From Oribacterium sp. P6A1 (GTDB lineage: Bacteria > Bacillota > Clostridia > Lachnospirales > Lachnospiraceae), in the NCBI RefSeq assembly GCF_000702885.1, contig NZ_JNKO01000002.1, positions 62,001 to 126,000 of the forward strand: a stretch of 64,000 bases of DNA. Reading direction: 5' to 3'. Made by a program: the position numbers and the translations under genes. The notes under the pieces are model-generated. The model searched no databases, was not told the origin of the DNA, and was given only the letters and a program-made list of their open reading frames with translations. Shown in pieces: positions 1 to 13,543 of the stretch. The first letter of the stretch is position 1. The number at the start of each line of letters is the position of its first letter.

Positions 1-60
1 TGTCATAAAACAAACGCTATAGCTGATATGTAAAAATTGGTATGAATTATGTGAAGGAAA

Positions 61-801
61 ATGGGGTATAGTATGAATGAAACAGCAAAAAAGAAAACTG
101 CCATCGTGACCGGAGCCTCATCGGGTATCGGAAAAGCCATAGCACACAGGCTCGTGAAAATGGGGTATGAGGTTTACGGCATAGGAAGAAACTTTGATGA
201 GGAAGAAATACCGGGATTCCATCACGTTATCTGTGATCTGAGAGAAACCCGGGAGATGCTTGCGGCTATAAAGCGGATAGTTAAGACTCCTGGCACTGAA
301 CCGGAGGTTCTGGTAAATAATGCCGGTTCCGCATACTATGGCCTTCATGAAGAATTGAATCCGGAGAAGATACAGGAGATGGTGAGAGTCAATCTTGAGA
401 TTCCCATGGTCATCACCCAGCAGCTTCTCAGAATTCTGAAAGAGAATAAAGGGTATATCTTCAATATCTCCTCTGTTACGGCCATATCCAGCAATCCCCA
501 CGGAGCGGCATATGGTGCAACCAAAGCAGGGCTCCTGAGTTTTGGCCGAAGCCTTTTTGATGAGGCGAGAAAATACGGAATAGGCGTTACTTCTATTCTG
601 CCTGATATGACGGATACGGCACTTTATCGAAATGCTGATTTTGAAGCTGATGCTGCCATGGATGCCCATCTGGAACCGGAAGATGCGGCAGATGCCGTGG
701 AGTATGCATTAAGCGTGAGAAAAGGAGTTTGCGTGCCTGAGATAGTTATAAGGCCACAGCTTCACAGAATTAAAAAGAAAAGCAGGGATTTTTGCAGATA
801 A
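61..801 (+). CDS. SDR-family NAD(P)-dependent oxidoreductase
   Basis: A classical short-chain dehydrogenase/reductase of 246 residues, close to the usual 250. The N-terminus has the Rossmann glycine motif TGASSGIG. It is followed by NNAG, the catalytic serine in NISSVTA, and the YxxxK pair in AYGATK, so the catalytic set is complete. The substrate cannot be read from the sequence. The start is uncertain: ATG at 61 has AAGG only 3 nt upstream, while ATG at 73 (MNETAKK) has a GGGG 6 nt upstream. It is followed by 154 nt before the next gene on the same strand. No operon partner points to a pathway. Confidence 0.9.
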   Translation: MGYSMNETAKKKTAIVTGASSGIGKAIAHRLVKMGYEVYGIGRNFDEEEIPGFHHVICDLRETREMLAAIKRIVKTPGTEPEVLVNNAGSAYYGLHEELNPEKIQEMVRVNLEIPMVITQQLLRILKENKGYIFNISSVTAISSNPHGAAYGATKAGLLSFGRSLFDEARKYGIGVTSILPDMTDTALYRNADFEADAAMDAHLEPEDAADAVEYALSVRKGVCVPEIVIRPQLHRIKKKSRDFCR

Positions 802-955
802 AAAAAGTAAGGATCCAGCTCATGGACAAAGGGGGATTTGTCTACAAGTTAGACCCTACTATCTATGATTTTAATCTTAAATCAATGAAAGTCAAATAAA
901 TAAAGTATAAAATTTATTCAAAATATTGCGGTTTTTACGGAGGAGAGGTGCGGTA

Positions 956-1903
956 ATGGAGAATATGAAAATAACGGTTGCCGGAGTCGGAGCCATCGGA
1001 GGATTGCTCGCGGCTATGCTTGGAAGAAAGTATGAAGACCGTATTACGCTCATTGCGAGAGGCGAACATGCAAAAGCCCTGAGAGAGAAGGGACTCACCA
1101 TGGAGAGCGAGTTTTACGGTGACAGCTTCATGAAACCGGCGGCGGTAGCGGAAAAAGGAGAGGAGATACCGGTACAGGATCTGGTGCTGATATGCTGCAA
1201 GAATTATTCTCTTGACCAGCTTTCAGAGCAGATCAGGCCATGTATAGGTCCTGATACCATAGTGATGCCTGTTATGAACGGTGTGGAGCCGGGGGACAGA
1301 GTACGTGAGAAGTTTCCGGAAGCCATATGCATAGATGCGCTTATTTATACCATAACAGCAAAGGCTTCCGACCATTCTGTTAAACAGTCGGGTCCTTACA
1401 CGCACATGTTCATCGGCTCAAAGTTAAAAGATGAGCGCCATACCGAAGCTGCGAAAAAGGTACATGAGCTTTTTAAAAGCGTGGGATTTGATGCAAGATA
1501 CAGTGATGACATCATGTCGGAGATATGGCAGAAGTTCATCCTGAATTGCGGTTTCAATGTCATAACCGCGAGATATCTCACCAATACGGGAGGTGTCCGC
1601 AGAAACAGTGAGTGGGCAAAGGATTTTCATGAGCTTATGAAAGAGGCGGAAGCAGTCGGACGTATGGAAGGCGTGAATATTCCGGAAGGAACAGCAGAGA
1701 AGAAATATGAGTATTGTATGGAAAATCAGAAAGATGATGCTACCTCTTCTCTAAAGAGGGATGTGGAAGCCGGAAGGCAGGCGGAACTTGATGCCTTTCT
1801 CGGGGCTGTGATCAGAAAGGCCGGGAAATACGGCATAGAGGTGCCGTATTCCGAAAAGTACCACAGGGAACTGTCGGGAATGATAGATGCATACATGGCA
1901 TAA
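956..1903 (+). CDS. Ketopantoate reductase family protein (PanE/ApbA-like)
   Basis: A 315-residue oxidoreductase with an N-terminal NADP-binding motif (GVGAIGGLLAA) and a family C-terminal helical domain containing a lysine/asparagine-rich active site region (WQKFILNCGFN). Family members reduce 2-dehydropantoate to pantoate in CoA synthesis, but many paralogues in Clostridia act on other 2-oxo acids, so the exact substrate is open. The start at 956 is chosen because GGAGGAGAGG (939-948) lies 7 nt upstream. A start 30 nt earlier is possible but lacks such a site. A strong terminator follows at 1930. Confidence 0.85.
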   Translation: MENMKITVAGVGAIGGLLAAMLGRKYEDRITLIARGEHAKALREKGLTMESEFYGDSFMKPAAVAEKGEEIPVQDLVLICCKNYSLDQLSEQIRPCIGPDTIVMPVMNGVEPGDRVREKFPEAICIDALIYTITAKASDHSVKQSGPYTHMFIGSKLKDERHTEAAKKVHELFKSVGFDARYSDDIMSEIWQKFILNCGFNVITARYLTNTGGVRRNSEWAKDFHELMKEAEAVGRMEGVNIPEGTAEKKYEYCMENQKDDATSSLKRDVEAGRQAELDAFLGAVIRKAGKYGIEVPYSEKYHRELSGMIDAYMA

Positions 1904-1929
1904 GTGTTATATCATAAATAATAATTAAC

Positions 1930-1978
1930 GGAGACTCCAATGGCGGATGAACAATCTGCAGATGGAGTCTCCTTTTTT
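1930..1978 (+). terminator. Rho-independent terminator of the PanE-like gene
   Basis: Perfect 10-bp arms GGAGACTCCA (1930-1939) and TGGAGTCTCC (1963-1972) are followed directly by six T. The position, 27 nt after the stop codon, fits transcription end of the upstream gene. Confidence 0.85.
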
Positions 1979-2072
1979 ATCTGCCATAAGGCTGTCATGT
2001 CACCGGAACAGGTACCGGTGCTAAAAAACCGGATAGGAATTACCTATGATTATGAGAAGAAATACCTATAAT

Positions 2073-2183
2073 TATAACGGACACGAATGGTCATGTCTGT
2101 TATAAACCTTTGTGCTGTTTTTTAAACAAAATTGAAAAAATAATAAAAAACAGGTTGATTTTGCGAGGGTTTGAACTTACTAT
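2073..2183 (+). promoter_or_regulatory. Candidate promoter and operator of the pxp operon
   Basis: An inverted repeat TATAACGGACA (2073-2083) / TGTCTGTTATA (2094-2104) has one wobble position and lies about 140 nt before the first gene. A possible promoter TTGATT (2155-2160), 17-nt spacer, TACTAT (2178-2183) lies between it and the GTG start at 2242. The inverted repeat could be an operator. Neither element is proven. Confidence 0.35.
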
Positions 2184-2241
2184 ATAACTATGATTCAAAT
2201 ATGTTTTGAAGAGATATAACCAAGAGAAGGGGGTAAACAAA

Positions 2242-3543
2242 GTGAAACAGGGAAATCAAGTCCTTAATCAAGTCCTAAAATACGGTGATCAGGCAATTGA
2301 CGCAGGTGATGCAGTTCAGGGTTTCAAGGAAGAAACAAAGGTGAACTCAAAGAAGAGCGGAAGCGGGGCTTTGCTGGGTGCAGCATTCCTCATGGCAACC
2401 AGTGCCATCGGTCCGGGATTTTTGACACAGACCTCATCATTTACAGGTCAGCACCAGGCAAGCTTTGGATTCGTTATTCTGGCATCGGTCCTTTTGGCAG
2501 CCATCGCACAGCTAAACATCTGGAGAGTTCTCTGTGCCACAGGCCTGAGAGGACAGGACATAGCAAACAAAGTCCTTCCGGGACTCGGATATTTTCTTTC
2601 CGCACTGATCGTTCTCGGCGGTCTGGTATTCAATATCGGTAATGTCGGCGGCGGTGCTCTCGGATTCAACACATTACTGGGTATCCCCACAACAGTTGGT
2701 TATGTGCTTACAGGTGCCATTGCCATCGCGGTATTCCTTTCCAAGAATGCAAAGGGGGTTATGGATACCCTGGTTAAGATTCTCGGCGGAATCATGATTG
2801 CAGTTATCTTCATCGTTATCCTCATCGTAAAGCCGCCTGTAGGTGATGCTGTAAAGAACACTGTGATTCCTGCAACAGGCTATGGCGCATTGTTCCCGGC
2901 TATACTTACACTCCTTGGAGGAACAGTAGGCGGATACATCACATTCTCAGGTGCTCACAGACTCATCGATGCAGGAATGACAGGTGAGAGCAAGATGAAG
3001 GAAGTAACCAAGAGTTCGGTTACGGGTATCTTGATTGCAGCCCTGGTAAGAGTATTTCTTTTCCTTGCGGTTCTCGGAGTAGTAGCAAAGGGAGCGACAC
3101 TGGACAGCGGAAATCCTGCAGCGGATGCTTTCAGACAGGGAGCAGGAGAAATAGGTTACAGATTTGCGGGACTGGTTCTTCTTTGCGCAGCAGTAACATC
3201 GGTTATAGGTGCAGCTTACACATCGGTTTCTTTCCTTAAGACCTTTAGCAAGAAGATAGCAGATCATGAGAATCTCTGGGTTATCGGATTCATCGCAGTT
3301 TCAACACTGGTAATGATCATTTCCGGTTCACCTGCAGCTCTCCTCATTATCGCAGGAGCTGTAAACGGACTGATTCTTCCTATATCCCTCGGTATCTCAC
3401 TGGTGGCTTCCCAGAAGAAGTCAATCATGGGAGCTGACTACAAGCATCCTACAGTTCTCCTTGTTCTCGGTATCCTCGTAGTTATCATATCAGCTTATGT
3501 GGGTATCACATCCCTTGGAAACTTCAGTAAGCTTTTCAGCTGA
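2242..3543 (+). CDS. NRAMP-superfamily transporter, YcsG-like
   Basis: A polytopic membrane protein of about 433 residues with an N-terminal cytoplasmic stretch of about 40 residues and roughly 11 hydrophobic segments. The first segment (ATSAIGPGFLTQTSSFTG) and the next (AAIAQLNIWRV) match the YcsG branch of the NRAMP superfamily, which in Bacillus sits in the ycsFG-kipIA locus. The metal-coordinating DPGN of true NRAMP manganese/iron carriers is absent from segment 1, and no MPH motif is seen in the middle segment (GAHRL instead). Position at the head of the 5-oxoprolinase operon suggests import of 5-oxoproline or a related lactam, which is inference. GTG at 2242 is preferred because AGAAGGGGG lies 9 nt upstream; TTG at 2206 is an alternative. 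Confidence 0.75.
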   Translation: MKQGNQVLNQVLKYGDQAIDAGDAVQGFKEETKVNSKKSGSGALLGAAFLMATSAIGPGFLTQTSSFTGQHQASFGFVILASVLLAAIAQLNIWRVLCATGLRGQDIANKVLPGLGYFLSALIVLGGLVFNIGNVGGGALGFNTLLGIPTTVGYVLTGAIAIAVFLSKNAKGVMDTLVKILGGIMIAVIFIVILIVKPPVGDAVKNTVIPATGYGALFPAILTLLGGTVGGYITFSGAHRLIDAGMTGESKMKEVTKSSVTGILIAALVRVFLFLAVLGVVAKGATLDSGNPAADAFRQGAGEIGYRFAGLVLLCAAVTSVIGAAYTSVSFLKTFSKKIADHENLWVIGFIAVSTLVMIISGSPAALLIIAGAVNGLILPISLGISLVASQKKSIMGADYKHPTVLLVLGILVVIISAYVGITSLGNFSKLFS

Positions 3544-3674
3544 GTACAGGTTTTTAGGAAAACATGTTGATGAGTTATATACGGGTCTTAAAGAAATCGA
3601 CTTGTATGGTTTACGGATGTAAAATGTAAAATAGATACAGATATTCATGGAAGGTTCCGTGAATGTTTGGCCGG

Positions 3675-3758
3675 GTTAAGCCGTCGAATGCTGAAGCATG
3701 TTATCATGCATTTCATTCGGCGGCTAACGTTCAAGTAGGAGAAGTTTCCTGTCTGAAC
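3675..3758 (+). repeat. Structured intergenic element, copy A
   Basis: Two consecutive hairpins. The first has arms around AAGCCGTC / GGCGGCTAACG with a long loop. The second has arms TTCAAGTAGGA / TCCTGTCTGAA. The layout (RTAAGGCCGTC, loop, GRCGGC-NAACG, second stem with GAGYAGG-like 5' arm) recurs at 23431, 56789 and 63147 in the same orientation. Here it lies 62 nt upstream of pxpB, inside the operon. It may be a mobile palindromic unit or an RNA element. Confidence 0.55.
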
Positions 3759-3820
3759 CAGGCTGTTTATATGGATCGGGAATGGATAGTTCCCGGTTGG
3801 ATTAGGAGAAATATATATCT

Positions 3821-4543
3821 ATGCAGAAGATAAAAATCGTGCCGGAGGGAGATTCTTCAATTCTTGTGGTATTTGAACAGACCATCTGTCCGGAGGTCAA
3901 TCAAAAGATCGCAGCTGCGGCAAAGCTCATTAAGGCACAGCAGATATCGGGAATCATTGATATGATCCCTACCTACTGTTCACTTCTTATTAATTACAAT
4001 CCTCTGGTCATAAGCTATGAGGCGCTGAGAGACCGAGTTGATTCCATAGTTCGCATGGAATCCAGAACGGAAGGCGGAAGAAAAAAGGTATGGGAGATTC
4101 CGGTGGTTTACGGAGGCGTTTACGGACCGGATCTTGAAACCATTGCGGAACATGCAGGTCTTTCCAGAGAAGAGGTTATAAAGATACATTCAAGTCAGGA
4201 TTATCTCATATATATGCTGGGATTTCTGCCGGGATTTACCTATCTCGGAGGTCTTGATGAAAGGATACACACACCGAGACTTGCGACGCCCAGAGTAAGG
4301 ATACCTGCAGGTTCGGTGGGAATCGGAGGTTCCCAGACCGGTATCTATCCCATGGATTCACCGGGAGGGTGGCAGCTTATGGGCATGACTCCCGTAAAAA
4401 CCTACGATGCAGGAAGAGAGGTACCCATACTTGTGGAAGCGGGAGACTATATCCGGTTTATCCCTGTATCTGAAGAAGAATATCTATCCATAAAAAAAGA
4501 GGTGGATGCAGGTACATATAAGGTTAATGTTGAGGAAGGGTAG
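3821..4543 (+). CDS. pxpB: 5-oxoprolinase subunit PxpB (KipI family)
   Basis: A 240-residue KipI/allophanate-hydrolase-subunit-1 family protein. Recognisable family blocks are GDSSILVVF near the N-terminus, IIDMIPTYCSLLINY, and the signature LPGFTYLGGLDERIHTPR...IPAGSVGIGGSQTGIYPMDSPGGWQLMG across the C-terminal half. In characterised bacteria PxpB works with PxpC and PxpA to open 5-oxoproline to glutamate with ATP. AGGAG lies upstream of the ATG. The paired domain is also homologous to part of the carboxyltransferase domain of urea carboxylase, which matters because biotin carboxylase genes follow in this operon. Confidence 0.93.
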   Translation: MQKIKIVPEGDSSILVVFEQTICPEVNQKIAAAAKLIKAQQISGIIDMIPTYCSLLINYNPLVISYEALRDRVDSIVRMESRTEGGRKKVWEIPVVYGGVYGPDLETIAEHAGLSREEVIKIHSSQDYLIYMLGFLPGFTYLGGLDERIHTPRLATPRVRIPAGSVGIGGSQTGIYPMDSPGGWQLMGMTPVKTYDAGREVPILVEAGDYIRFIPVSEEEYLSIKKEVDAGTYKVNVEEG

Positions 4544-4656
4544 ACCGGTGCAGCTTTGCGGGGACATACAGCAGAGGCTGAAGAATTCTGTTATGCATCC
4601 GGAGCCTCGCAAAGGGAATTTTACTTTTACGATATGCCGGAATTAAGGAGAGATCA

Positions 4657-5664
4657 ATGGGCTTCAGAGTAATTAAAGGCGGACTGCTCACCACGGTGCA
4701 GGATCTGGGACGAAGCGGTTATCAGAGCCAGGGCTTTAATGTGGGCGGAGTAATGGACAGGAGATCATTCCGGATAGCCAATCTGCTTTTGGACAATCCG
4801 GAAAATGAGGCGGTACTTGAATGTACCCTCATAGGACCGACGCTGGAATTCACTTCCAGCCAGATCATAGCCATCACAGGAGGAGATTTCAGACCCGAAC
4901 TGAATGATGATCCTGTACCTATGTATACCGCCATATATGTCAATAAAGGAGATGTTTTGAAGGTGGGTTCGGCAAGGACCGGAAGAACCTGTTATATAGC
5001 ATTTTCAAATTATATGCAGATTCCTGTGGTTATGGGATCCAGGAGCACAAATCTGAAATGCGGAATAGGCGGATTCAAAGGAAGAAAACTGAATGATGGT
5101 GACTATATTTCTACCAGAATAAAGAGGAGAAAGTATCTGCCCTTCTTCCTTTCACGCTCACTTCCTCTGCATGAATTCGATAACAGTACGGAAACTGTAA
5201 GAGTGGTTATGGGACCTCAGGATGATATGTTTTCATCCAAGGGGATAGAAACATTCCTGAACAGTGAATTTACCGTATCCAGCAATTTTGACAGGATGGG
5301 CGTTCGAATGGAAGGTCCTTTCGTGGAGAGCAGGACCGGATCGGATATCATTTCCGACGGAATAGCTCTCGGCGCCATACAGGTGCCGGCTCACGGTAAG
5401 CCCATCATACTTCTGGCGGATCATCAGACAGCCGGGGGATATGCAAAGATAGGAACCGTGGCAAGTGTGGATCTGCCCAAGGTGGCGCAGCGCCGTATAG
5501 ACGACAAAATAAGATTCAAGAGTATAACGGTGGAAGAGGCCCAGCATCTCATCAAGGTGGAGGAGCATGAATATCAGGAATTCAGAAACCGTATTCATAA
5601 ACCGTGTAAGGAAGTACTGGAAGTAAGACTTACAGCCCAGAGGCTTGAGAAGCTGTTCGGCTGA
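4657..5664 (+). CDS. pxpC: 5-oxoprolinase subunit PxpC (KipA family, biotin-dependent carboxyltransferase domain)
   Basis: A 335-residue KipA/allophanate-hydrolase-subunit-2 family protein. It opens with the family start KGGLLTTVQDLGRSGYQ, continues with GGVMDRRSFRIANLLLDN, and has MGPQDDMFS and the late block GIALGAIQVPAHGKPIILLADHQTAGGYAKIGTV (conserved tail ending in QRR). It partners PxpB and PxpA in 5-oxoproline hydrolysis. The fold is the same as the carboxyltransferase half of urea carboxylase. ATTAAGGAGAG precedes the ATG. A 113-nt gap separates it from pxpB, and the next gene starts 31 nt after its stop. Confidence 0.93.
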   Translation: MGFRVIKGGLLTTVQDLGRSGYQSQGFNVGGVMDRRSFRIANLLLDNPENEAVLECTLIGPTLEFTSSQIIAITGGDFRPELNDDPVPMYTAIYVNKGDVLKVGSARTGRTCYIAFSNYMQIPVVMGSRSTNLKCGIGGFKGRKLNDGDYISTRIKRRKYLPFFLSRSLPLHEFDNSTETVRVVMGPQDDMFSSKGIETFLNSEFTVSSNFDRMGVRMEGPFVESRTGSDIISDGIALGAIQVPAHGKPIILLADHQTAGGYAKIGTVASVDLPKVAQRRIDDKIRFKSITVEEAQHLIKVEEHEYQEFRNRIHKPCKEVLEVRLTAQRLEKLFG

Positions 5665-5695
5665 ACTGTATAAAGGGGATGGAAAGGAAGAACCG

Positions 5696-6160
5696 ATGAT
5701 GGATTTAGAGAAGATAGAGGGACTTGTAAAGATACTGGAAAAATCATCACTGAAGACTATGTCAGTGAGGGACGGAGAGTTCAAGATCACCATGAGTAAG
5801 CTTGATAATCCTCCTGTTATTTCGGGAGCGGCAGGAGCTTTGCCCATGACAGTGACAACTTCAGTTACAGAGGACGGAAAAGCATCACAAACCGATAAAG
5901 GAGCAGTGGATGATGAGACAGAGGTGAATATCACATCACCTATAGTAGGAACCTTCTACTCCGCTGCAGGGCCGGATATCCCTGCATACGTAAAGGTGGG
6001 AGACATGGTAAAGGCCGGAGAGACAGTATGTATCGTAGAGGCCATGAAGATGATGAATGAGATAAGTGTTGATTATGACTGCGAGATCGAAGCTGTGCTG
6101 GTATCCAATGAGCAGAAGGTGGAGTACGGTCAGCCTCTTTTCAGAGTAAAGAAAGTCTGA
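5696..6160 (+). CDS. accB: Biotin carboxyl carrier protein (AccB-like)
   Basis: A 154-residue biotin carrier with an AccB-type N-terminus (LEKIEGLVKILEKSSLKTMSV), a linker, and a C-terminal biotinyl domain. The biotinylation motif EAMKMM places the acceptor at about K118. The start at 5696 is set by GGAAAGGAAG 5 nt upstream; a longer frame from 5645 overlaps pxpC and lacks a site. No acetyl-CoA carboxyltransferase genes (accA/accD) are in the operon, so its partner for carboxyl transfer is probably PxpBC rather than AccAD, by inference. Confidence 0.92.
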   Translation: MMDLEKIEGLVKILEKSSLKTMSVRDGEFKITMSKLDNPPVISGAAGALPMTVTTSVTEDGKASQTDKGAVDDETEVNITSPIVGTFYSAAGPDIPAYVKVGDMVKAGETVCIVEAMKMMNEISVDYDCEIEAVLVSNEQKVEYGQPLFRVKKV

Positions 6161-6249
6161 TTCTCTGACAGGCTAAAAACGCCTGTTATAAGGCCGGCCC
6201 CGGATATGAGTATACAGGGGTAAGGTACAGAACCAGTGTGGAGGTTTAG

Positions 6250-7599
6250 ATGTTTAAAAGAGTTTTGGTTGCAAACCGCGGAGAAATAGCAGTCAGAGTC
6301 ATTCGTGCCCTCCGTGACATGGGAATAGTCTCAGTAGCGGTTTACTCAAAGGAGGACAGGGATGCACTTCATGTGCGTCTGGCTGATCTCAGGGTCTGTA
6401 TAGGTGAGGGTCCTGCCAGAGATTCGTATCTTAATATGGATGCCATCATTTCGGCAGCTCTCAACATGGAGTGCGAGGCCATTCATCCGGGTTACGGTTT
6501 CCTTTCCGAGAACAGTGAGTTTGCAAGGAGATGTGAGGAAAACAATCTGGTATTTATAGGTCCGGCATCCTGGATAATTGATGAGATGGGAAATAAGTCC
6601 GCTGCAAGAAAGAAGATGATGGAAGCGGGAGTTCCGGTAGTTCCCGGAACCAAAGAGCCGGTGTATGACTCCGCAGCGGCTCTTACGGAGGCGAGAAACA
6701 TTGGCTTCCCTGTTATGATAAAGGCCAGCTCAGGAGGCGGCGGAAAGGGCATGCGGGAATGTTTTTCCGAGGATGATTTTGAAGATGCATTTAATACTGC
6801 ACAGCGTGAGTCTGCCAATGCCTTCGGAGATGACACTATGTACATCGAAAAGCTGGTGGTGCATCCCAGGCATGTGGAGGTTCAGCTTATAGGAGATAAC
6901 TTTGGCAATGTTGTCACTCTGGGTGAAAGAGACTGTTCCGTACAGCGTAATCACCAGAAGCTTATTGAAGAGTCACCATCCCCGGCCATTGATGAGGAGA
7001 CCCGCAGCAGGATGTACAGGGATGCAGCCATTGCAGCGAAGACGGTGGGATATAACAGCGCAGGAACCATTGAATTTATTGTGGATCAGAGCGGTGAATA
7101 CTATTTCATGGAGATGAATACCCGTATTCAGGTGGAGCATGGAGTTACCGAAATGGAGACGGGGACAGATCTTATGGTGGAGCAGATCAGGGTTGCTGCA
7201 GGGGAACCTCTCAGCTTTGCGCAGGAGGATATAGTTCTTAAGGGTCATACCATAGAGTGCCGTGTGAATGCAGAGATCCCCGAGAAGCATTTCATGCCCA
7301 GCCCCGGAAAGATCACGAATCTTCTGCTTCCGGGAGGAAACGGAGTGAGAGTGGACACGGCTGTATACACAGGCTATACCATTCCCTCGGAATATGATTC
7401 CATGATCGCAAAGATCATCGTCCATGCACCTACGAGAGAGGCGGCCATAATGAAGATGAAGGCGGCGCTGGACGAGACTGTCATCATGGGTGTTGATACA
7501 AATCTTGATTTTCAGTATAAGATCATGAACAACCTGACATTCATGAACGGGAAAGCGGATACAGGATTTATAGCGGCATTTACAGAAGGAGGCAGATAA
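6250..7599 (+). CDS. accC: Biotin carboxylase (AccC-like)
   Basis: A 449-residue ATP-grasp biotin carboxylase, the normal AccC length. It shows the N-terminal VLVANRGEIAVRVIRA, the glycine-rich ATP loop KASSGGGGKGMR, EKLVVHPRHVEVQ, ERDCSVQRNHQKLIEE and the catalytic EMNTRIQVEHGVTE. It carboxylates biotin on the carrier protein using ATP and bicarbonate. GGAGG precedes the start. Its TAA overlaps the ATG of pxpA by one base (TAATG), which indicates translational coupling and supports joint function with the Pxp proteins. Confidence 0.95.
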   Translation: MFKRVLVANRGEIAVRVIRALRDMGIVSVAVYSKEDRDALHVRLADLRVCIGEGPARDSYLNMDAIISAALNMECEAIHPGYGFLSENSEFARRCEENNLVFIGPASWIIDEMGNKSAARKKMMEAGVPVVPGTKEPVYDSAAALTEARNIGFPVMIKASSGGGGKGMRECFSEDDFEDAFNTAQRESANAFGDDTMYIEKLVVHPRHVEVQLIGDNFGNVVTLGERDCSVQRNHQKLIEESPSPAIDEETRSRMYRDAAIAAKTVGYNSAGTIEFIVDQSGEYYFMEMNTRIQVEHGVTEMETGTDLMVEQIRVAAGEPLSFAQEDIVLKGHTIECRVNAEIPEKHFMPSPGKITNLLLPGGNGVRVDTAVYTGYTIPSEYDSMIAKIIVHAPTREAAIMKMKAALDETVIMGVDTNLDFQYKIMNNLTFMNGKADTGFIAAFTEGGR

Positions 7600-8363
7600 T
7601 GCAGGTAGATTTAAACAGTGATCTGGGAGAGAGCTTCGGACGATATACATTGGGCATGGACAGCGAGATTATTCCGCTTATAACAAGTGCCAATGTTGCC
7701 GCAGGCTTCCATGCCTCTGACCCGCTGGTGATGAAGAAGACGGTTGAGTCGGCAAAGAGTTCGGGCATCGCAGTGGGAGTCCACCCGGGATATCCGGATC
7801 TTATGGGCTTCGGAAGAAGGAACATGGTGGTTTCCGATGAGGAATCCTATGCCTACACCATGTATCAGATAGGAGCGCTGGATGCTTTTCTGAAGGCTCA
7901 GGGCATGAAACTTCAGCATGTAAAGCCCCATGGCGCCTTTTATAACATGGCAGCCAAGGACAGAAGCCAGTCGGAGGCAATATGCAGAGCCATCAAAGAC
8001 TATGATCCCGGGCTCATTGTTATGGCACTTCCTTCAGGAGAACTTTACAAGGCGGCAAAGGATATGGGACTGAGAGCTGCGGCAGAGGTTTTTGCCGACA
8101 GAGCCTACGAGGAGGACGGAACTCTGGTAAACAGAAAGAAGCCCGGAGCCATGATCACCGACGAGGAGGAATCTCTTAAGCGTGTTATCCGCATGGTTAA
8201 AGAACATAAGGTAAGGGCCATAAGCGGCAAGGATATAGATATCACTGTGGATTCGATCTGTGTTCACGGAGACGGAGTCAAGGCGCTTCAGTTTGTGAAG
8301 AGGCTGAGGGAAGGCCTTACTGCCGAGGGCATAAGCATTAAACCCCTGAGGGAATTTTTGTAA
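7599..8363 (+). CDS. pxpA: 5-oxoprolinase subunit PxpA (LamB/YcsF family)
   Basis: A 254-residue LamB/YcsF protein. Family hallmarks are VDLNSDLGESFGRYTLG at the N-terminus, TSANVAAGFHASDP, GVHPGYPDLMGFGRR, HVKPHGAFYNMAA, EVFADRAYEEDGTLVNR and the late SICVHGDG. These include the conserved acid and histidine residues of the presumed hydrolytic site. It completes the PxpABC set and is translationally coupled to accC. A terminator follows at 8410, so this is the last gene of the operon. Confidence 0.95.
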   Translation: MQVDLNSDLGESFGRYTLGMDSEIIPLITSANVAAGFHASDPLVMKKTVESAKSSGIAVGVHPGYPDLMGFGRRNMVVSDEESYAYTMYQIGALDAFLKAQGMKLQHVKPHGAFYNMAAKDRSQSEAICRAIKDYDPGLIVMALPSGELYKAAKDMGLRAAAEVFADRAYEEDGTLVNRKKPGAMITDEEESLKRVIRMVKEHKVRAISGKDIDITVDSICVHGDGVKALQFVKRLREGLTAEGISIKPLREFL

Positions 8364-8409
8364 TAAGGAAAATGCCTTCATGGAAATTTAATATGTGAGA
8401 TGATTGATT

Positions 8410-8462
8410 AAGAACTGCTTTTTAATGACGATTTTTATCGACTTTAAAGGCAGTTCTTTTTC
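8410..8462 (+). terminator. Terminator of the pxp operon
   Basis: AAGAACTGC (8410-8418) pairs with GCAGTTCTT (8450-8458), with further A/T pairing inside and a T run at the 3' side. It lies 47 nt after the pxpA stop. Confidence 0.75.
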
Positions 8463-8623
8463 GACGCACTCCTTGAAAATATTAGTGAAATAATTGAAAA
8501 ATTTGCATGGATGAAAGATGGTGTTGATTCGGAGATATTAAACTTTTTTTGATTTTTGCCGATAAGAGAAGTACAGGGAATGAGTGTATAGTTAATCAAG
8601 GATAGATAGGAGATCAAACAAGG

Positions 8624-9490
8624 ATGTTAGATATATATATTCATATTAGACCCATAACGTATGAGGATTGCGGCTTGCTGGGAGGCAGATCTGCCTTTGC
8701 GGCAGGTACGGAGCTGCATAACATAAGAGGGAAGAGCAGAGTGGATTTCATGGAGGAAGTACTCCATCTTCTCATCAGAAAATCAAAGTACGGCAGATTT
8801 ATTTATCCATTCAAACGAATTGCGGTGTGTTTTATAGATCTGGATGGTGCTGTCAGTGTTGCGTACACAGGCGACGGCGATATAGAGAATAATGCATACT
8901 CATATATAGACAGTAAGGGAAGAACAGGAAAAGTCTTCAGGTATTATGATATCGGAGAGATGCTCTGCAAAAGAAATATACAGGTTTACGGAATCTTTCA
9001 GCAGCAGGACGATGATACCTACAGAGCCATAGGGAACATATCGAAGGAAAAAGATACCGGAGATATCTCTTCTCCGGAGGGTATATGGCAGGATAAGGAG
9101 CTGACTCATGGCTTTGATGTTGTGAGATGCCTTGACCTTCGCGGAAGCTGTAAGGCAAAGGTTGTGGAAGCTTCGTCTTTCCATAATTATGTAAAGTATG
9201 ATCTGGGTGAGGATTTTTTCATCGAAGGTTATGACAATTACAATACAGGTTCCAGAGAATACTGGGTAGGAAGAGACTACACCAAGGAGAAGTACCTTCT
9301 TAACTGCTTTGAACTGGATGAGGAGGGAAAAGAAGAAATAGTCAGCTCCGATTGGAAGATAAGTGTTGACCGCAGGTTTGCGGAGATACTTTGTAAGCTT
9401 ACAGACAGATACGAATATATCTTCATTGATAACGACTACAGGATATCCATGGCGGGTATCAATATAGAGAAAATAAAAGAGAAGCTTTGA
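8624..9490 (+). CDS. Uncharacterised protein, 288 residues
   Basis: I do not recognise this family. It is a soluble, acidic protein with no signal peptide or membrane segment, rich in aromatic residues and Asp/Glu. Segments such as RFIYPFKRIAVCFIDLDGAVSVAYTG and GIFQQQDDDTYRAIGNI suggest a beta-rich fold. AGGAGATC stands upstream of the ATG, and codon use matches its neighbours. It is a single gene between the pxp operon terminator and the nitronate monooxygenase gene, with about 100 nt to the latter. The function is unknown. Confidence 0.75.
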   Translation: MLDIYIHIRPITYEDCGLLGGRSAFAAGTELHNIRGKSRVDFMEEVLHLLIRKSKYGRFIYPFKRIAVCFIDLDGAVSVAYTGDGDIENNAYSYIDSKGRTGKVFRYYDIGEMLCKRNIQVYGIFQQQDDDTYRAIGNISKEKDTGDISSPEGIWQDKELTHGFDVVRCLDLRGSCKAKVVEASSFHNYVKYDLGEDFFIEGYDNYNTGSREYWVGRDYTKEKYLLNCFELDEEGKEEIVSSDWKISVDRRFAEILCKLTDRYEYIFIDNDYRISMAGINIEKIKEKL

Positions 9491-9592
9491 GATGCTTTAA
9501 AATCCGTTTGACTTATATATGAAAAGAAACTAATCTATAAATTGCTATGGTTAAAAAATTTTAGCTAAAAAATATGAGCAAACGGAGATGAT

Positions 9593-10648
9593 ATGTCACT
9601 TTTGAAAATTCATGGAAAAGAGATAAAGATACCACTTATTCAGGGAGGAATGGGGGTTGGAGTTTCTCTTGAAAAGCTTGCGGGTGCTGTTGCGAAGTGC
9701 GGAGGCATGGGCTGTATCAGCACAGCAGATTGCGGTTACAGAGAAGAAGATTTTATGAGGGCTCCCGAGGAGGCCAATTTAAGAGCTCTTAAGAAGGAGA
9801 TACAGAAGGCAAAGGAGATTTCAGAAGGAATGGGCCTCATCGCCATCAATGCCATGGTGGCAACACAGCAGTATGCCGAAGCTGTTAAGACTGCAGTAAA
9901 GAACGGTGTGGATGCTGTTATTTCAGGAGCGGGACTTCCGCTTGATCTTCCGGAGCATGTACCGGAGGGAGAAGCTCTTATAGCACCTATAGTATCAAGC
10001 GACAGGGCTTTCAAGGTTATCGCAAAGTCATGGGAAAGGAACTACCATCGTTTCCCTGATTTTGTTGTTCTTGAGGGACCTAAAGCCGGAGGACATCTGG
10101 GATTTAAAGAGAAGGAGCTTCTGGAGGGAAGCTGCGGATCTGTTACGGATATACTGAAAAAGCTGGTGGAAGCAGTAAAACCCTATGAGGAAGCCATAGG
10201 AAGAAGGATTCCTGTTTTTGCTGCCGGTGGAATCTGGGACAAGGCTGATATTGAGGAGGTTCAGGATCTCGGAGCAGCCGGCGTGCAGATGGCCACAAGG
10301 TTTATAGCTACCGAGGAGTGCGATGCATCCCGGGAATATAAGGAGACTCTCATTAAGGCTTCATCTCAGGATGTCAGAATCATTCACAGTCCGGTGGGTA
10401 TGCCTGGAAGAGCACTGTTCACACCGCTTATCAAGAGGCTTGAAGAATCGGGCAGGATACCGCCCACTCATTGTTCCCGCTGCATCAAGACCTGTAATCC
10501 CGGTCAGGTGCCGTATTGTATCACCAGGGCTCTTATCGAAGCGGTAAAGGGCAACTATGAAGAGGGACTTTTCTTTACCGGGGCCAATGTTGAAAAGCTG
10601 ACAGGCATGACAACTGTTCCGGAGCTGGTGAAGGAGCTGGGATTCTGA
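9593..10648 (+). CDS. Nitronate monooxygenase family protein (2-nitropropane dioxygenase-like)
   Basis: A 351-residue FMN-dependent TIM-barrel protein. It begins with IPLIQGGMGVGVSLEKLAGAV, then has GAGLP, GPKAGGHLG, the FMN phosphate-binding stretch VFAAGGIWD...GAAGVQMATRFIATEEC and SPVGMPGRAL. A C-terminal cysteine-bearing tail (HCSRCIKTCNPGQVPYCIT) is common in clostridial members. Family enzymes oxidise alkyl nitronates, or, in the FabK branch, reduce enoyl-ACP. No fatty acid genes are adjacent, so nitronate monooxygenase-like is the safer name. GGAG precedes the ATG. Confidence 0.88.
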   Translation: MSLLKIHGKEIKIPLIQGGMGVGVSLEKLAGAVAKCGGMGCISTADCGYREEDFMRAPEEANLRALKKEIQKAKEISEGMGLIAINAMVATQQYAEAVKTAVKNGVDAVISGAGLPLDLPEHVPEGEALIAPIVSSDRAFKVIAKSWERNYHRFPDFVVLEGPKAGGHLGFKEKELLEGSCGSVTDILKKLVEAVKPYEEAIGRRIPVFAAGGIWDKADIEEVQDLGAAGVQMATRFIATEECDASREYKETLIKASSQDVRIIHSPVGMPGRALFTPLIKRLEESGRIPPTHCSRCIKTCNPGQVPYCITRALIEAVKGNYEEGLFFTGANVEKLTGMTTVPELVKELGF

Positions 10649-10748
10649 GCAGTTTGTAAAGTCGGAGAAAAGCTTTCTTTGGGGATAGGAGTCATTACTT
10701 CCGGAAATATCTTTCTAAACTTTTTGTGAACTGAGATTATATGGATTG

Positions 10749-10780
10749 ACACCGGTTTAGGCCGGTGTTATTCTTTTTTT
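10749..10780 (+). terminator. Terminator of the nitronate monooxygenase gene
   Basis: ACACCGG (10749-10755) pairs with CCGGTGT (10762-10768) across a short loop, followed by a run of T broken by one C up to 10780. Confidence 0.85.
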
Positions 10781-10785
10781 ATTCG

Positions 10786-10812
10786 TTAGCACTCAATTTA
10801 ATTGATTGCTAA
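10786..10812 (+). promoter_or_regulatory. CIRCE operator (HrcA binding site) upstream of lon
   Basis: TTAGCACTC, a 9-nt spacer (10795-10803), then GATTGCTAA. The CIRCE consensus is TTAGCACTC-N9-GAGTGCTAA, so both arms and the spacer length match with one mismatch. It lies 59 nt upstream of the lon start, in the leader/promoter region, and implies repression of lon by HrcA with release at heat shock. Confidence 0.88.
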
Positions 10813-10871
10813 CAAGCGTAAACATTAGCCTATAAAGGCACAGTTCCCGAGAGGAACAGACAGGAGTATAA

Positions 10872-13307
10872 ATGAAAGTATTACCACTCTATAATGTGTT
10901 GGTCTTACCAGATTCAAATATTTATTTTCAGACTCAGGCGTTTCGTGCTATTGCAGGAAACAATGTTTATCAGGGAGATTCTGTGACTATCCTTGTTATG
11001 AAGGAACAGCAGATCCGGGAGCAGATAACTGATAAGAGCTTTTATCCCATCGGTGTTGAGGGAAAGATTGAAGAGATAAGCGGAGAAGGCTACGTAATCA
11101 TAAAGACCGAGAATCGTGTGGATGTAAAGGAAATTGCTGTGAATGATCAGCATGAGATATTTGTTGACACGGTAAAGCGGGACAGCATCAAGGATATGGA
11201 TGTAAATGAGGCCCGGCAGAGACTTCTTAAGATCAAGGTTGACCTGAAGGAGCTGGTATCCAGATTCCGTTGGGGATCCATTATGGAAAGCCATATTGAT
11301 CAGTATACTTCCATAGAAGAGGCTGCGGCGGTTCTCAGCTCGTGGATATCCATTACCAATGAGGAGAGATATGCCGTACTGGAGATGGATTCTGAAAAGG
11401 AGAGGTTCGAGGCTCTTGAGAAGATAATCTATGAGTATGCCGAAGTGACCAGGGTAACTACCGATGCCCAATTCGCGCAGCAGGAAGACTATCAGAAGCT
11501 GTACAAGGAGAATGCACTTAAGAAGCAGATCGACTACCTCCAGAAGGAGCTGGACGAGATGCATCCTGAGCAGGTGACTGAGGTCCGTAAGTTCGAGCTG
11601 AAGATTCAGGAATCAGAGATGAACGAAGAGGCGAGAAGGGAAGCGGGCAAGGTACTTAACCGTCTAAAGAATGACGGCGACAATTCTGCCGAGTCAGGTA
11701 TGCTTTATGACTATCTCGACTTTGTAACGGGACTCTCCTGGAAGAAGGAGGAACCTGAGCAGATTGATCTTTCGGAAGCTGAGAAGATTCTTGATGAGGA
11801 TCACTTCGGAATGAAGAAGGTGAAGGAGAGAATCATTCAGCAGATAGCTGTGATGAATCTGAAGAGAAAACAGTCAGGCTCCATCATTGTATTTGTGGGT
11901 GCTCCTGGAACCGGTAAGACTTCCATAGGAAAGTCCATCGCAAAGGCTCTCCACAGGAAATATGTGAGAGTATCTCTCGGCGGTGTCAAGGATGAGGCGG
12001 ATATCAGAGGTCACAGACGTACATACATCGGTGCCATGCCGGGACGTATCATGGATGGAATAAGCAAGGCCGGAGTATCAAATCCCGTTATGGTTCTTGA
12101 TGAGATCGATAAGCTTTCAAGCTCCTACAACGGAGATCCCGCAAGCGCACTTCTCGAGGTGCTGGATCCGGAGCAGAACAACACCTTCACAGATCACTAC
12201 ATGAATGTGCCCTATGACTTAAGTGATGTGTTGTTCATCTGTACCGCCAATACTCTGGATACTATTCCGGGTCCGCTTCTCAACCGTATGGAGGTGATTC
12301 AGTTCCAGGGCTACACACCCAGAGAGAAGTTCCAGATAGCGGAGAAGCATCTGCTTCCCAAGGCTCTGGATGCCGTTGGTCTGAATCCGGGAGACATTAA
12401 GGTTAATGATGATGCCTTGGAAACTATTATTTCCGATTACACCCGGGAAGGCGGCGTCAGAGGTCTTAAGAAGAGACTGGATACCCTTTGCCGTATAGCG
12501 GCGGTGAAGTTTGTCAGGGAGAATGGGGTGCCGGAGATCGAAGATAAAACGGATGGTAAAGCCGTGAATCTGACAGAAGATACGGTTTCAGTGGATGCAA
12601 GTGTAAAACATGATGTAATATCCGGAGATGGCCTCCAGGAATCCGGAGAAGAGAAAGAAACAGCTGTCTGCATAGAACCAAAGATAGTTGTGACAAAGGA
12701 AGAGCTTCGGGAATATCTGGACATGCATGCTCTGACTCATAACAAGGTGAAGGATGAGGCACGTCCCGGTGTAGTGACCGGTCTTGCCTGGACTCAGGTG
12801 GGAGGCGAGATACTTTACATCGAGTCACTGTTCACAAAGGGAGAGGGTAAGACTGTAGTAACGGGACAGCTTGGAGATGTGATGAAGGAGTCTGTGCAGA
12901 TCGCACTTTCACTGGTCAAGGCGAAATTCCCTGAGCTTGCTTCAAAGTTCAAGGAGAACGATCTCCACATTCATGTGCCTGACGGCTCAACTCCGAAGGA
13001 TGGTCCTTCAGCGGGAATCACCATGACAACGGCTCTTGCATCCCTTGTAACAGGACGTCCGGTTTCTCCTCACATCGCCATGACAGGTGAGATTTCCCTT
13101 GAGGGAACCGTTAATGCCATAGGCGGACTTCCGGAGAAGCTTATGGCGGCAGAGCGCGCCGGAGTCACAAAGGTATTTATTCCGAAGGATAATGTTGAAG
13201 ACCTCCGTGATGTGGCTTCCGAGGTAAAGGACAAGCTGGAGATCATTCCTGTGGAGTATGTTGAGGAAGTACTCAAGGCTGCAGGAATTATGACAGAGGA
13301 TAAATGA
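10872..13307 (+). CDS. lon: ATP-dependent protease Lon
   Basis: An 811-residue Lon protease. It has the N-terminal substrate-binding LAN domain (about 1-200), a coiled segment, and the AAA+ module with Walker A GAPGTGKTS (about 342-350) and Walker B VMVLDEIDK. The C-terminal peptidase has catalytic Ser713 in DGPSAGIT and Lys756 in GGLPEKLMAAERAG, 43 residues apart as in E. coli Lon. An acidic insertion of about 50 residues (about 550-600) lies between the AAA lid and the protease domain and explains the extra length. AGGAG precedes the ATG. Control by HrcA is indicated by the upstream CIRCE site. Confidence 0.97.
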   Translation: MKVLPLYNVLVLPDSNIYFQTQAFRAIAGNNVYQGDSVTILVMKEQQIREQITDKSFYPIGVEGKIEEISGEGYVIIKTENRVDVKEIAVNDQHEIFVDTVKRDSIKDMDVNEARQRLLKIKVDLKELVSRFRWGSIMESHIDQYTSIEEAAAVLSSWISITNEERYAVLEMDSEKERFEALEKIIYEYAEVTRVTTDAQFAQQEDYQKLYKENALKKQIDYLQKELDEMHPEQVTEVRKFELKIQESEMNEEARREAGKVLNRLKNDGDNSAESGMLYDYLDFVTGLSWKKEEPEQIDLSEAEKILDEDHFGMKKVKERIIQQIAVMNLKRKQSGSIIVFVGAPGTGKTSIGKSIAKALHRKYVRVSLGGVKDEADIRGHRRTYIGAMPGRIMDGISKAGVSNPVMVLDEIDKLSSSYNGDPASALLEVLDPEQNNTFTDHYMNVPYDLSDVLFICTANTLDTIPGPLLNRMEVIQFQGYTPREKFQIAEKHLLPKALDAVGLNPGDIKVNDDALETIISDYTREGGVRGLKKRLDTLCRIAAVKFVRENGVPEIEDKTDGKAVNLTEDTVSVDASVKHDVISGDGLQESGEEKETAVCIEPKIVVTKEELREYLDMHALTHNKVKDEARPGVVTGLAWTQVGGEILYIESLFTKGEGKTVVTGQLGDVMKESVQIALSLVKAKFPELASKFKENDLHIHVPDGSTPKDGPSAGITMTTALASLVTGRPVSPHIAMTGEISLEGTVNAIGGLPEKLMAAERAGVTKVFIPKDNVEDLRDVASEVKDKLEIIPVEYVEEVLKAAGIMTEDK

Positions 13308-13479
13308 ATTTCTGTTATGGCTGACATTAAAAACCGGCAGTTGTGAATTGACATACGTGGTGATACGGTTTTAGGAGACAAACTGTGAGACGGTGATCCT
13401 GAGAAAGGTATACTAAAGAATCCGGAATTCAGGATAAGCATCAGTCTGTCATAAATTTATACAGTATATATTGAGTGCA

Positions 13480-13510
13480 ATGGGGCAAATGATTAAATCA
13501 TTTGCCCCAT
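13480..13510 (+). terminator. 14-bp perfect hairpin between lon and acetolactate synthase
   Basis: ATGGGGCAAATGAT and its exact complement flank a three-base TAA loop. The 3' side continues ATTGTTTTAT, a weak T-rich tail. It lies 170 nt after lon and 33 nt before the next start, so it may end lon transcription or act as an attenuator for the next gene. Confidence 0.6.
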
Positions 13511-13543
13511 ATTGTTTTATAGAAACGTATGCGGAGGACAGAT

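Follow-up and report, generated by a model that had tools for sequence, protein, structure and literature searches.

The window analysed here is a stretch of 64,000 nucleotides from Oribacterium sp. P6A1 (assembly GCF_000702885.1, contig NZ_JNKO01000002.1, positions 62,001 to 126,000 of the forward strand), and the system in question is a cluster of 5-oxoprolinase-type (pxp) genes that encloses genes for a biotin carboxyl carrier protein (accB) and a biotin carboxylase (accC). Six intact open reading frames (ORFs), NRAMP-pxpB-pxpC-accB-accC-pxpA, follow one another in the same direction on the + strand at 2242-8363 (Table 1), with gaps of 277, 113, 31, 89 and -1 bases between them. The original prediction, made from the letters of this stretch, had stated that PxpB, PxpC, the carrier, the biotin carboxylase and PxpA are encoded together and that accC and pxpA overlap by one base; both statements hold, the ORFs being intact and the family matches far above chance. 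Its discussion passed over the first gene, which belongs to the NRAMP family. It had also proposed that the lactam is carboxylated by way of biotin before PxpA opens the ring. A functional tie of AccB and AccC to PxpBC is supported by the findings below, while the carboxylation of the lactam itself is a step that we infer. Our reading, which we believe only a little less readily than we doubt it, is that the operon encodes a 5-oxoprolinase of which AccBC is a part, handing carboxybiotin to PxpBC.

AccB and AccC of the window both pass the bacterial acetyl-CoA carboxylase equivalogs (TIGR00531 and TIGR00514), and all ten of the catalytic positions checked in AccC are intact. Because PxpC meets the broader family TIGR00724 and does not reach the equivalog NF045499 (231.3 of 500 bits), we file the system, as judged from these profiles, as a PxpABC-like variant and not as a strict member of PxpABC. 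No RNA element was found by Rfam match in 1-14000. A scan of 1850-8700 gave 8 promoter-like sites against 11.5 expected and 9 terminator-like sites against 4.7 expected, and its result was not used.

Table 1. Genes of the pxp-acc locus and the ORF directly downstream, in window positions
Gene	Product	Position	Strand	Family match	Pfam match	Other features
NRAMP	NRAMP-family metal transporter, YcsG/MntG-like	2242..3543	+		PF01566 E 3.5e-25	possible alternative start upstream, TTG at 2206
pxpB	KipI-like, carboxyltransferase subdomain C/D	3821..4543	+	TIGR00370 219.3 bits, cut-off 145.55	PF02682 E 5.9e-76	nearest solved sequence 2phc
pxpC	KipA-like, carboxyltransferase subdomain A/B	4657..5664	+	TIGR00724 284.8 bits, cut-off 230.2	PF02626 E 4e-91	
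accB	biotin carboxyl carrier protein	5696..6160	+	TIGR00531 145.7 bits, cut-off 115.2	PF00364 E 1.3e-19	biotin site EAMKM
accC	biotin carboxylase	6250..7599	+	TIGR00514 648.7 bits, cut-off 626.5	PF02786/PF00289/PF02785 E 5.6e-73/7.1e-46/1.9e-40	
pxpA	LamB/YcsF, ring-opening subunit	7599..8363	+	NF003814 370.4 bits, cut-off 226	PF03746 E 1.4e-101	
ORF	288 aa, directly downstream of pxpA	8624-9490		no NCBIfam match	no Pfam match	

The survey of accBC beside pxp genes that the original prediction had suggested was carried out, and it can be seen that the arrangement of the window recurs from Lachnospiraceae to Streptococcus. Among 152 tabulated pxpC loci (L182, L184, L319 and L324-L326 having been dropped as second copies of one genome) the order of the window was found at 53, and the main unlinked orders were pxpA-NRAMP-pxpB-pxpC (28 loci), pxpA-pxpB-pxpC (17) and pxpB-pxpC-pxpA (17). 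Wherever a tabulated cluster has accB, this gene directly follows pxpC, the exception being L153; L248, which has a fatty-acid operon nearby on the other strand, and L259, with a weak accB match, were left out of the counts. We also examined the 80 loci with the PxpC most similar to that of the window, which are the best 80 of 572 relatives and not a census. When PxpC was at least 59% identical, accC lay downstream at 45 of 47 loci (at two of them in a form predicted inactive, described below), and the other two stop at contig ends before accC; when it was at most 53% identical, accC was present at 2 of 33 loci, both from Terrisporobacter. Within the genus, a biotin carboxylase match was obtained in 16 of 17 genomes. 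The match adjoins pxp genes in all 16, and on this ground, along with the recurrence of the order, we reject a chance neighbourhood. A genome in which PxpB and no biotin carboxylase was found, G035, is 77% complete.

Units of this kind are also present in a plasmid collection, 743 records of which match PxpC. Three of the best four, from Lactobacillaceae (L353, L. plantarum, 50 kb; L354, L. brevis, 31 kb; L355, L. fermentum, 760 kb), carry pxpB-pxpC-accB-accC-pxpA-NRAMP, and the order in the fourth, a Fusobacterium record of 2.1 Mb, is pxpA-NRAMP-pxpB-pxpC, accBC being absent. In L353 and L354 a putative hydro-lyase gene precedes pxpA, and transposase genes lie beside the unit.

To place the cassette AccC among other biotin carboxylases we built two trees, in which fatty-acid AccCs were labelled as such from their gene neighbours. 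The first held 97 biotin carboxylases and used no mixture model (L191, at a contig end, was left out). In it, 58 cassette AccCs form one clade with a Shimodaira-Hasegawa-like approximate likelihood ratio test (SH-aLRT) value of 100, apart from all 32 fatty-acid AccCs, and this clade spans Lachnospiraceae, Oscillospiraceae, Eubacteriaceae, Turicibacter, Globicatella and Streptococcus. Because the tree parts cassette from fatty-acid AccC within the same organisms (Streptococcus porci and S. ovuberis), we reject, as a full account of the window type, the idea that housekeeping accBC merely moved into pxp. The second tree was computed with a mixture model from 54 hand-chosen rows without the inactive AccCs. 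The AccC of Terrisporobacter, which stands apart in the first tree, falls inside the cassette clade with the mixture model, and a clade of the window type with three Bacilli loci (L335-L337) gave an approximately unbiased (AU) test p of 0.81, compatible with a shared origin. A single origin for all 25 pxp-linked AccCs was rejected (AU p 0.005, on a quick tree of the 54 rows); since one clade of these 25 does not hold, we conclude from the trees that AccC entered pxp clusters at least twice, with accB alongside. Genome G456 has a second pxp locus (L264/L350, 4060-8900) with a short pxpB ORF and accBC of its own, and the AccC of this locus lies among the fatty-acid ones; judged by this placement, it is perhaps a recent, separate recruitment of housekeeping accBC.

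After second copies had been dropped (L182, L184, L296, L300, L301, L303, L307-L311, L319 and L324-L326), the biotin lysine was present in all 67 pxp-linked AccBs, five of whose motifs (MKV) were read by eye, and all ten catalytic positions were intact in 65 of 71 pxp-linked AccCs. Cassette AccC is the sole biotin carboxylase match in 24 genomes, 15 of the genus and nine others drawn from the 43 cassette genomes (G428 was not counted, being the same genome as G011), and in ten of these 24 no AccDA was found. Eight of the ten (G001, G010, G430, G447, G454, G455, G462 and G463) have only the carboxyltransferase of a decarboxylase cluster, of the oxaloacetate-decarboxylase type, and two (G006 and G449) have in addition a subunit of the acyl-CoA-carboxylase type of about 547 aa; completeness, known for three of the AccDA-negative genomes, is 97% for G001, 93% for G006 and 73% for G010. 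AccB and AccC are intact in all eight genomes of the former group. Because they are intact where no AccDA was found, they seem to be kept there for something other than malonyl-CoA, with PxpBC the evident partner.

Protein Data Bank (PDB) entry 9YX5, which is known to us from its title, chain names and sequence matches, is a long chain acyl-CoA carboxylase complex of M. smegmatis to which MSMEG_0435-MSMEG_0436, homologues of PxpC and PxpB, are bound; its AccA3 is described, in the relevant passage of PMC11001197, as the biotin carboxylase-biotin carboxyl carrier protein (BC-BCCP) subunit of acyl-CoA carboxylase. No paper describing 9YX5 was found among the open-licence PubMed Central (PMC) literature. 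It is clear from the entry that a complex which contains biotin carboxylase and works in acyl-CoA carboxylation can have a pair of the PxpBC type bound to it. Because of the repeated recruitment, the plasmid cassettes, the eight genomes in which no AccDA was found and 9YX5, the view that AccB and AccC are functional partners of PxpBC is supported.

In the reaction that we propose, AccC would carboxylate the AccB-bound biotin with ATP and bicarbonate, as the intact catalytic residues and biotin site suggest. AccBC would act on, and probably bind, PxpBC; conserved gene order, repeated recruitment and 9YX5 all point to such a contact. PxpBC would then move the carboxyl group to a lactam, probably 5-oxoproline, which commonly arises from glutamate as a cyclic by-product, either on the nitrogen or on the oxygen of the enol form, and PxpA would hydrolyse the activated ring, with loss of CO2 and release of glutamate. 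The NRAMP protein would probably bring in Mn2+ by analogy with YcsG/MntG, the NRAMP protein of the B. subtilis pxp operon, which is reported as an Mn2+ importer in the passage concerned of PMC10448178.

Several findings weigh against this scheme, and they are taken together in this and the following paragraphs, along with the explanations that they favour. Most of the clostridial pxp clusters sampled do without accBC. An even draw of 391 genomes from the class gave 41 PxpB loci (three urea carboxylases and a spurious match in G034 were left out), and accC was in the cluster at four of these, the window included; accBC could also be present at five (L126, L130, L132, L141 and L156) that end less than 2.5 kb downstream of pxpC. 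In Bacilli, PxpB was found in 287 of 398 genomes searched, and of 12 loci chosen by hand, for the most part in small genomes, three have accBC (L335-L337, in the order pxpB-pxpC-accB-accC-pxpA-NRAMP). The PxpABC systems of B. subtilis and C. glutamicum, whose operons are described without accBC in the relevant passages, support the use of 5-oxoproline (PMC13274462, PMC10448178), and the assumption stated there for ordinary PxpABC is that PxpBC phosphorylates and PxpA opens the ring (PMC13274462).

The residues of PxpB likewise speak against it. The original prediction had likened the system to urea carboxylase. This likeness extends to the four homologous modules and to the fold of PxpC, the model of which (predicted local distance difference test score, pLDDT, 89.9) matches E. 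coli YbgK (5dud; Z 38.4, root mean square deviation (rmsd) 1.7, 299 residues aligned) and the carboxyltransferase part of urea amidolyase from K. lactis (KlUA; 5i8i; Z 37.7, rmsd 2.2, 308 aligned); it does not extend to the catalytic lysine, which is replaced by arginine in PxpB. Lys1605 of KlUA is given as the probable general base of carboxyl transfer in urea carboxylase, in the part of PMC5770610 that deals with it. This residue corresponds to Arg153 of PxpB (PxpB 155 aligns with 1607) and to the lysine of the motif TTKYNPAR in bacterial urea carboxylases, a match that was placed partly by counting along a partly displayed alignment. Position 153 is arginine in 134 of 134 PxpBs, 65 linked and 69 unlinked, and lysine in all three bacterial urea carboxylases; for this count the second copies L182, L184, L296, L300, L301, L303 and L307-L311 were dropped, and L183, L191 and L205, where contigs end, were labelled linked by hand. 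The PxpB-homologue chain of 9YX5 also has arginine at this position. Urea-carboxylase-like chemistry is therefore not what these residues would indicate, and linkage to accBC has no effect on the arginine; the idea that linked PxpBs differ from unlinked ones at the position of Lys1605 was considered and rejected, arginine being found in both groups. Three residues before Arg153, His150 (155 when counted from the ORF start) does not vary within the cassette clade and is uncommon outside it. 9YX5 for its part is silent on which component PxpBC touches and on the reaction that follows.

We then looked for columns conserved in more than 90% of the cassette clade and in less than 15% of unlinked proteins, and found one in PxpA, six in PxpB, of which His150 is one, and 30 in PxpC. 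Judged by these alignments, the ring-opening subunit is nearly unchanged and the transferase subunits are changed, although common descent alone may explain the differences. Of the 30 PxpC columns, seven fall within an extension at the C terminus that includes a helix (residues 316-333 of the window's PxpC). This extension is partly present in Terrisporobacter, many unlinked PxpCs have a gap there, and L224 and L226, two cassettes with an AccC predicted inactive, retain it; it is a possible candidate for a docking element. The same columns bear on the question of substrate, since AccBC and PxpBC might together be a biotin-dependent carboxylase that acts on a different small amide or lactam, with PxpA hydrolysing the product and 5-oxoproline not the main substrate. 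The 30 columns of PxpC and its score below the equivalog cut-off (231 of 500) would fit such a specificity; however, PxpA differs at one column only and PxpB passes its equivalog cut-off. The putative hydro-lyase of the two plasmid cassettes, L353 and L354, also speaks for 5-oxoproline, belonging to a family which we take to include D-glutamate cyclase, a 5-oxoproline-forming enzyme. We regard a different main substrate as very unlikely.

The biotin carboxylase content of the host genome weighs in the same direction as the PxpB residues. The window genome (3.70 Mb in 95 contigs, 97.57% complete) has the cassette AccC as the only biotin carboxylase found in a PF02785 search. The statement in the original prediction that no accA or accD is present is correct for the locus and does not hold for the genome: both genes, which complete an acetyl-CoA carboxylase, lie away from the locus on contig C56 (L011, 6,950 bases, 1-6950) in the order ACP-accD-accA-fabH-fabK-fabD-fabG, where ACP stands for acyl carrier protein, and neither accB nor accC was found in this fatty-acid operon contig. 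The other two strong biotin domains of the genome and a third carboxyltransferase match belong to a cluster on contig C13 for a sodium-pump decarboxylase, an enzyme type that needs no biotin carboxylase, and two further biotin-domain matches are weak. The biotin domains of the C13 cluster (L012, 3518-9052) are near-identical, one ending a 397-aa protein and one lying in a protein of 121 aa. Because no other biotin carboxylase was found and the accDA operon lacks accBC, the cassette AccBC probably also serves AccDA for malonyl-CoA. The original prediction had named as evidence against itself that these be the only accBC genes of the genome and serve malonyl-CoA synthesis; the cassette AccC was indeed the sole biotin carboxylase found, which is half of that evidence, and the malonyl-CoA role is probable.

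The same picture was seen across the genus. A relative, G009 (99% complete, two contigs), has a single biotin carboxylase, adjacent to pxp, and its fatty-acid operon contains accDA and lacks accBC; the pxp-adjacent biotin carboxylase is the only one in 15 of the 16 genus genomes, so that acetyl-CoA carboxylase across the genus probably uses the cassette AccBC. The exception, G005 (L179), carries within its fatty-acid operon an accB and a second AccC, the latter on a distant tree branch beside that of G433; from this placement, the fatty-acid AccC of G005 was perhaps acquired.

These findings invite an explanation by co-regulation only, in which accBC are simply the cell's acetyl-CoA carboxylase genes, sited in the pxp operon to make the supply of malonyl-CoA follow nitrogen or citrate signals. 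The sole biotin carboxylase found in the window genome and the accDA operon without accBC are what it would lead one to expect, AccDA, split or fused, is present in 14 of the 24 genomes with cassette AccC as sole biotin carboxylase, and the accBC genes of a six-gene operon in S. aureus are under positive control by CcpE, according to the passages of PMC11315280 that treat it. However, another AccC-size ORF is present in 30 of 43 cassette genomes (in two more the sole other match is of pyruvate-carboxylase size), window-type cassette AccCs form a clade of their own, cassette AccBC is kept in eight genomes that yielded no AccDA, accBC accompanies pxp in records of the plasmid collection, and an inactive AccC is not expected to make malonyl-CoA. 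Taken together, we consider co-regulation as the whole explanation to be distinctly unlikely.

A last class of evidence against the transfer of carboxybiotin comes from cassettes in which AccC is predicted to be inactive. At L224, L226, L320, L321 and L322 an uninterrupted accC lies between pxpC and pxpA and encodes such a protein, and accB is absent beside accC in all five; for this reason carrier and catalysis appear to have been lost together, a point that counts in favour of the carboxybiotin reading. The hosts are four Streptococcaceae genomes and one Oscillospiraceae metagenome-assembled genome (MAG; L224), and the ORF is 407 aa long in the MAG and 393 aa in Streptococcus 'caviae' (L226). 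When 335 Streptococcaceae genomes were searched with the L226 AccC (E <= 1e-70), seven had a cassette-type AccC, four in the inactive form, with 100, 91, 90 and 72% identity to the query, and three intact. All five inactive proteins keep the N and C domains and have lost at least the first 65 positions of the ATP-grasp profile. The streptococcal ones keep none or one of the ten checked catalytic residues, and that of L224 keeps six of ten, without those matching E. coli K159, E288, N290 and R292. In the first tree the sister placement of the two inactive lineages is unsure, owing to long branches, and there may have been one or two losses. Among the four streptococcal genomes (six pairs) the ratio of nonsynonymous to synonymous substitution rates (dN/dS) of the inactive AccC is 0.21-0.32, compared with 0.02-0.15 for neighbouring genes. 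Because of these values we conclude, as far as substitution patterns can tell, that selection on it is relaxed and not lost, the protein being maintained. The model of the L226 AccC still has the biotin carboxylase fold (4mv9, Z 47.8, rmsd 2.6, 380 residues aligned). The AccC protein thus seems to matter to the Pxp system beyond catalysis.

AccC, with AccB, might instead have a structural or regulatory part in the Pxp complex, with PxpABC opening the ring through the ATP-dependent phosphorylation that is assumed for ordinary PxpABC and AccBC linking it to bicarbonate, biotin or fatty-acid status. The five cassettes that keep a predicted-inactive AccC without accB, the dN/dS values and the retained fold all speak in its favour. 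However, few Streptococcaceae genomes have the inactive form (4 of 335, as against three with the intact form), the 65 intact AccCs of 71 and the 67 biotin lysines of 67 AccBs would be needless for a mere scaffold, and in both inactive-form genomes checked (G464 and G466) an intact second AccBC, encoded in the fatty-acid operon, could act in trans. A purely structural or regulatory role is in our view unlikely.

The proposal that AccBC hands carboxybiotin to PxpBC can also be widened to a joint reading in which prokaryotic 5-oxoprolinase would quite generally run on carboxybiotin. PxpBC, as a carboxyltransferase that lacks its own biotin carboxylase, would usually borrow the module of the housekeeping acyl-CoA carboxylase, as 9YX5 would suggest because a PxpBC homologue is bound to the mycobacterial acyl-CoA carboxylase, and the cassette would have brought such a module into the operon. 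In the genus of the window the cassette module would have taken over malonyl-CoA synthesis, and some streptococcal cassette AccCs would have decayed to a dead docking subunit, the housekeeping AccBC being borrowed. We think this wider reading unlikely.

The coupling of ATP to the opening of a very stable lactam by PxpABC is a matter of assumption in the relevant passages of PMC13274462. If carboxybiotin is indeed used, a widespread glutamate-repair enzyme would join the biotin carboxylases, a second class of carboxyltransferase would share the module of acetyl-CoA carboxylase, and nitrogen recycling would respond to the status of biotin or bicarbonate. Given the streptococcal inactive AccC and the genomes that yielded no AccDA, simple assays can be used to test the question. 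There is also a warning for annotation, in that an extra accBC beside pxp ought not to be counted among the fatty-acid genes, which is what happened in S. aureus; the extra accB/accC copy of Lp. pentosus, given along with pxpB/pxpC as a separate species-specific trait in the passage concerned of PMC12427679, has perhaps been misbooked likewise.

Neither the arrangement nor the suspicion is new in print, and the gene set of S. aureus has been printed without the present interpretation in the passages at hand of PMC11315280. In the open-licence PMC literature we found no proposal of a biotin-dependent 5-oxoprolinase, nor a separate AccC clade, repeated recruitment, sharing with acetyl-CoA carboxylase, genomes without AccDA or a conserved inactive AccC.

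Among known systems, PxpABC of B. subtilis and C. glutamicum (YbgJK in E. coli) resembles the window in that PxpA and PxpB of the window match the curated families, PxpC has the fold of E. coli YbgK and an NRAMP gene is a neighbour, as in B. subtilis. It differs in that the window has accB and accC between pxpC and pxpA, and a PxpC below the cut-off with an added conserved C-terminal helix. A six-gene operon of S. aureus contains pxpB, pxpC, pxpA, accB and accC, the same five genes as in the window, its sixth gene being unnamed in the passages concerned; unlike the present case, it is treated there as a target that CcpE binds and controls, and the authors place accBC in fatty-acid synthesis and pxp in amino-acid metabolism (PMC11315280). 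Caprolactamase CapAB likewise opens a lactam with ATP, and bicarbonate and carboxyphosphate are discussed as mediators, as is a carboxyester of the lactim for this unrelated lactamase; however, it is said to be dissimilar to PxpABC, and no biotin carrier figures in the relevant part of that report (PMC8453981). Urea carboxylase/urea amidolyase (3va7, 5i8i) shares a biotin carboxylase, two carboxyltransferase halves and a biotin carrier with the window, whereas in the latter these are separate chains, with arginine in place of Lys1605 and PxpA instead of allophanate hydrolase; no window protein reached the cut-off of TIGR02712 (1303.85 bits), the family of the single-chain urea carboxylase of about 1200 aa, the best being AccC with 536.1 bits. 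In the M. smegmatis complex 9YX5, finally, PxpBC homologues are held in one complex with the BC-BCCP subunit AccA3, although there the biotin carboxylase and the carrier are on one chain.

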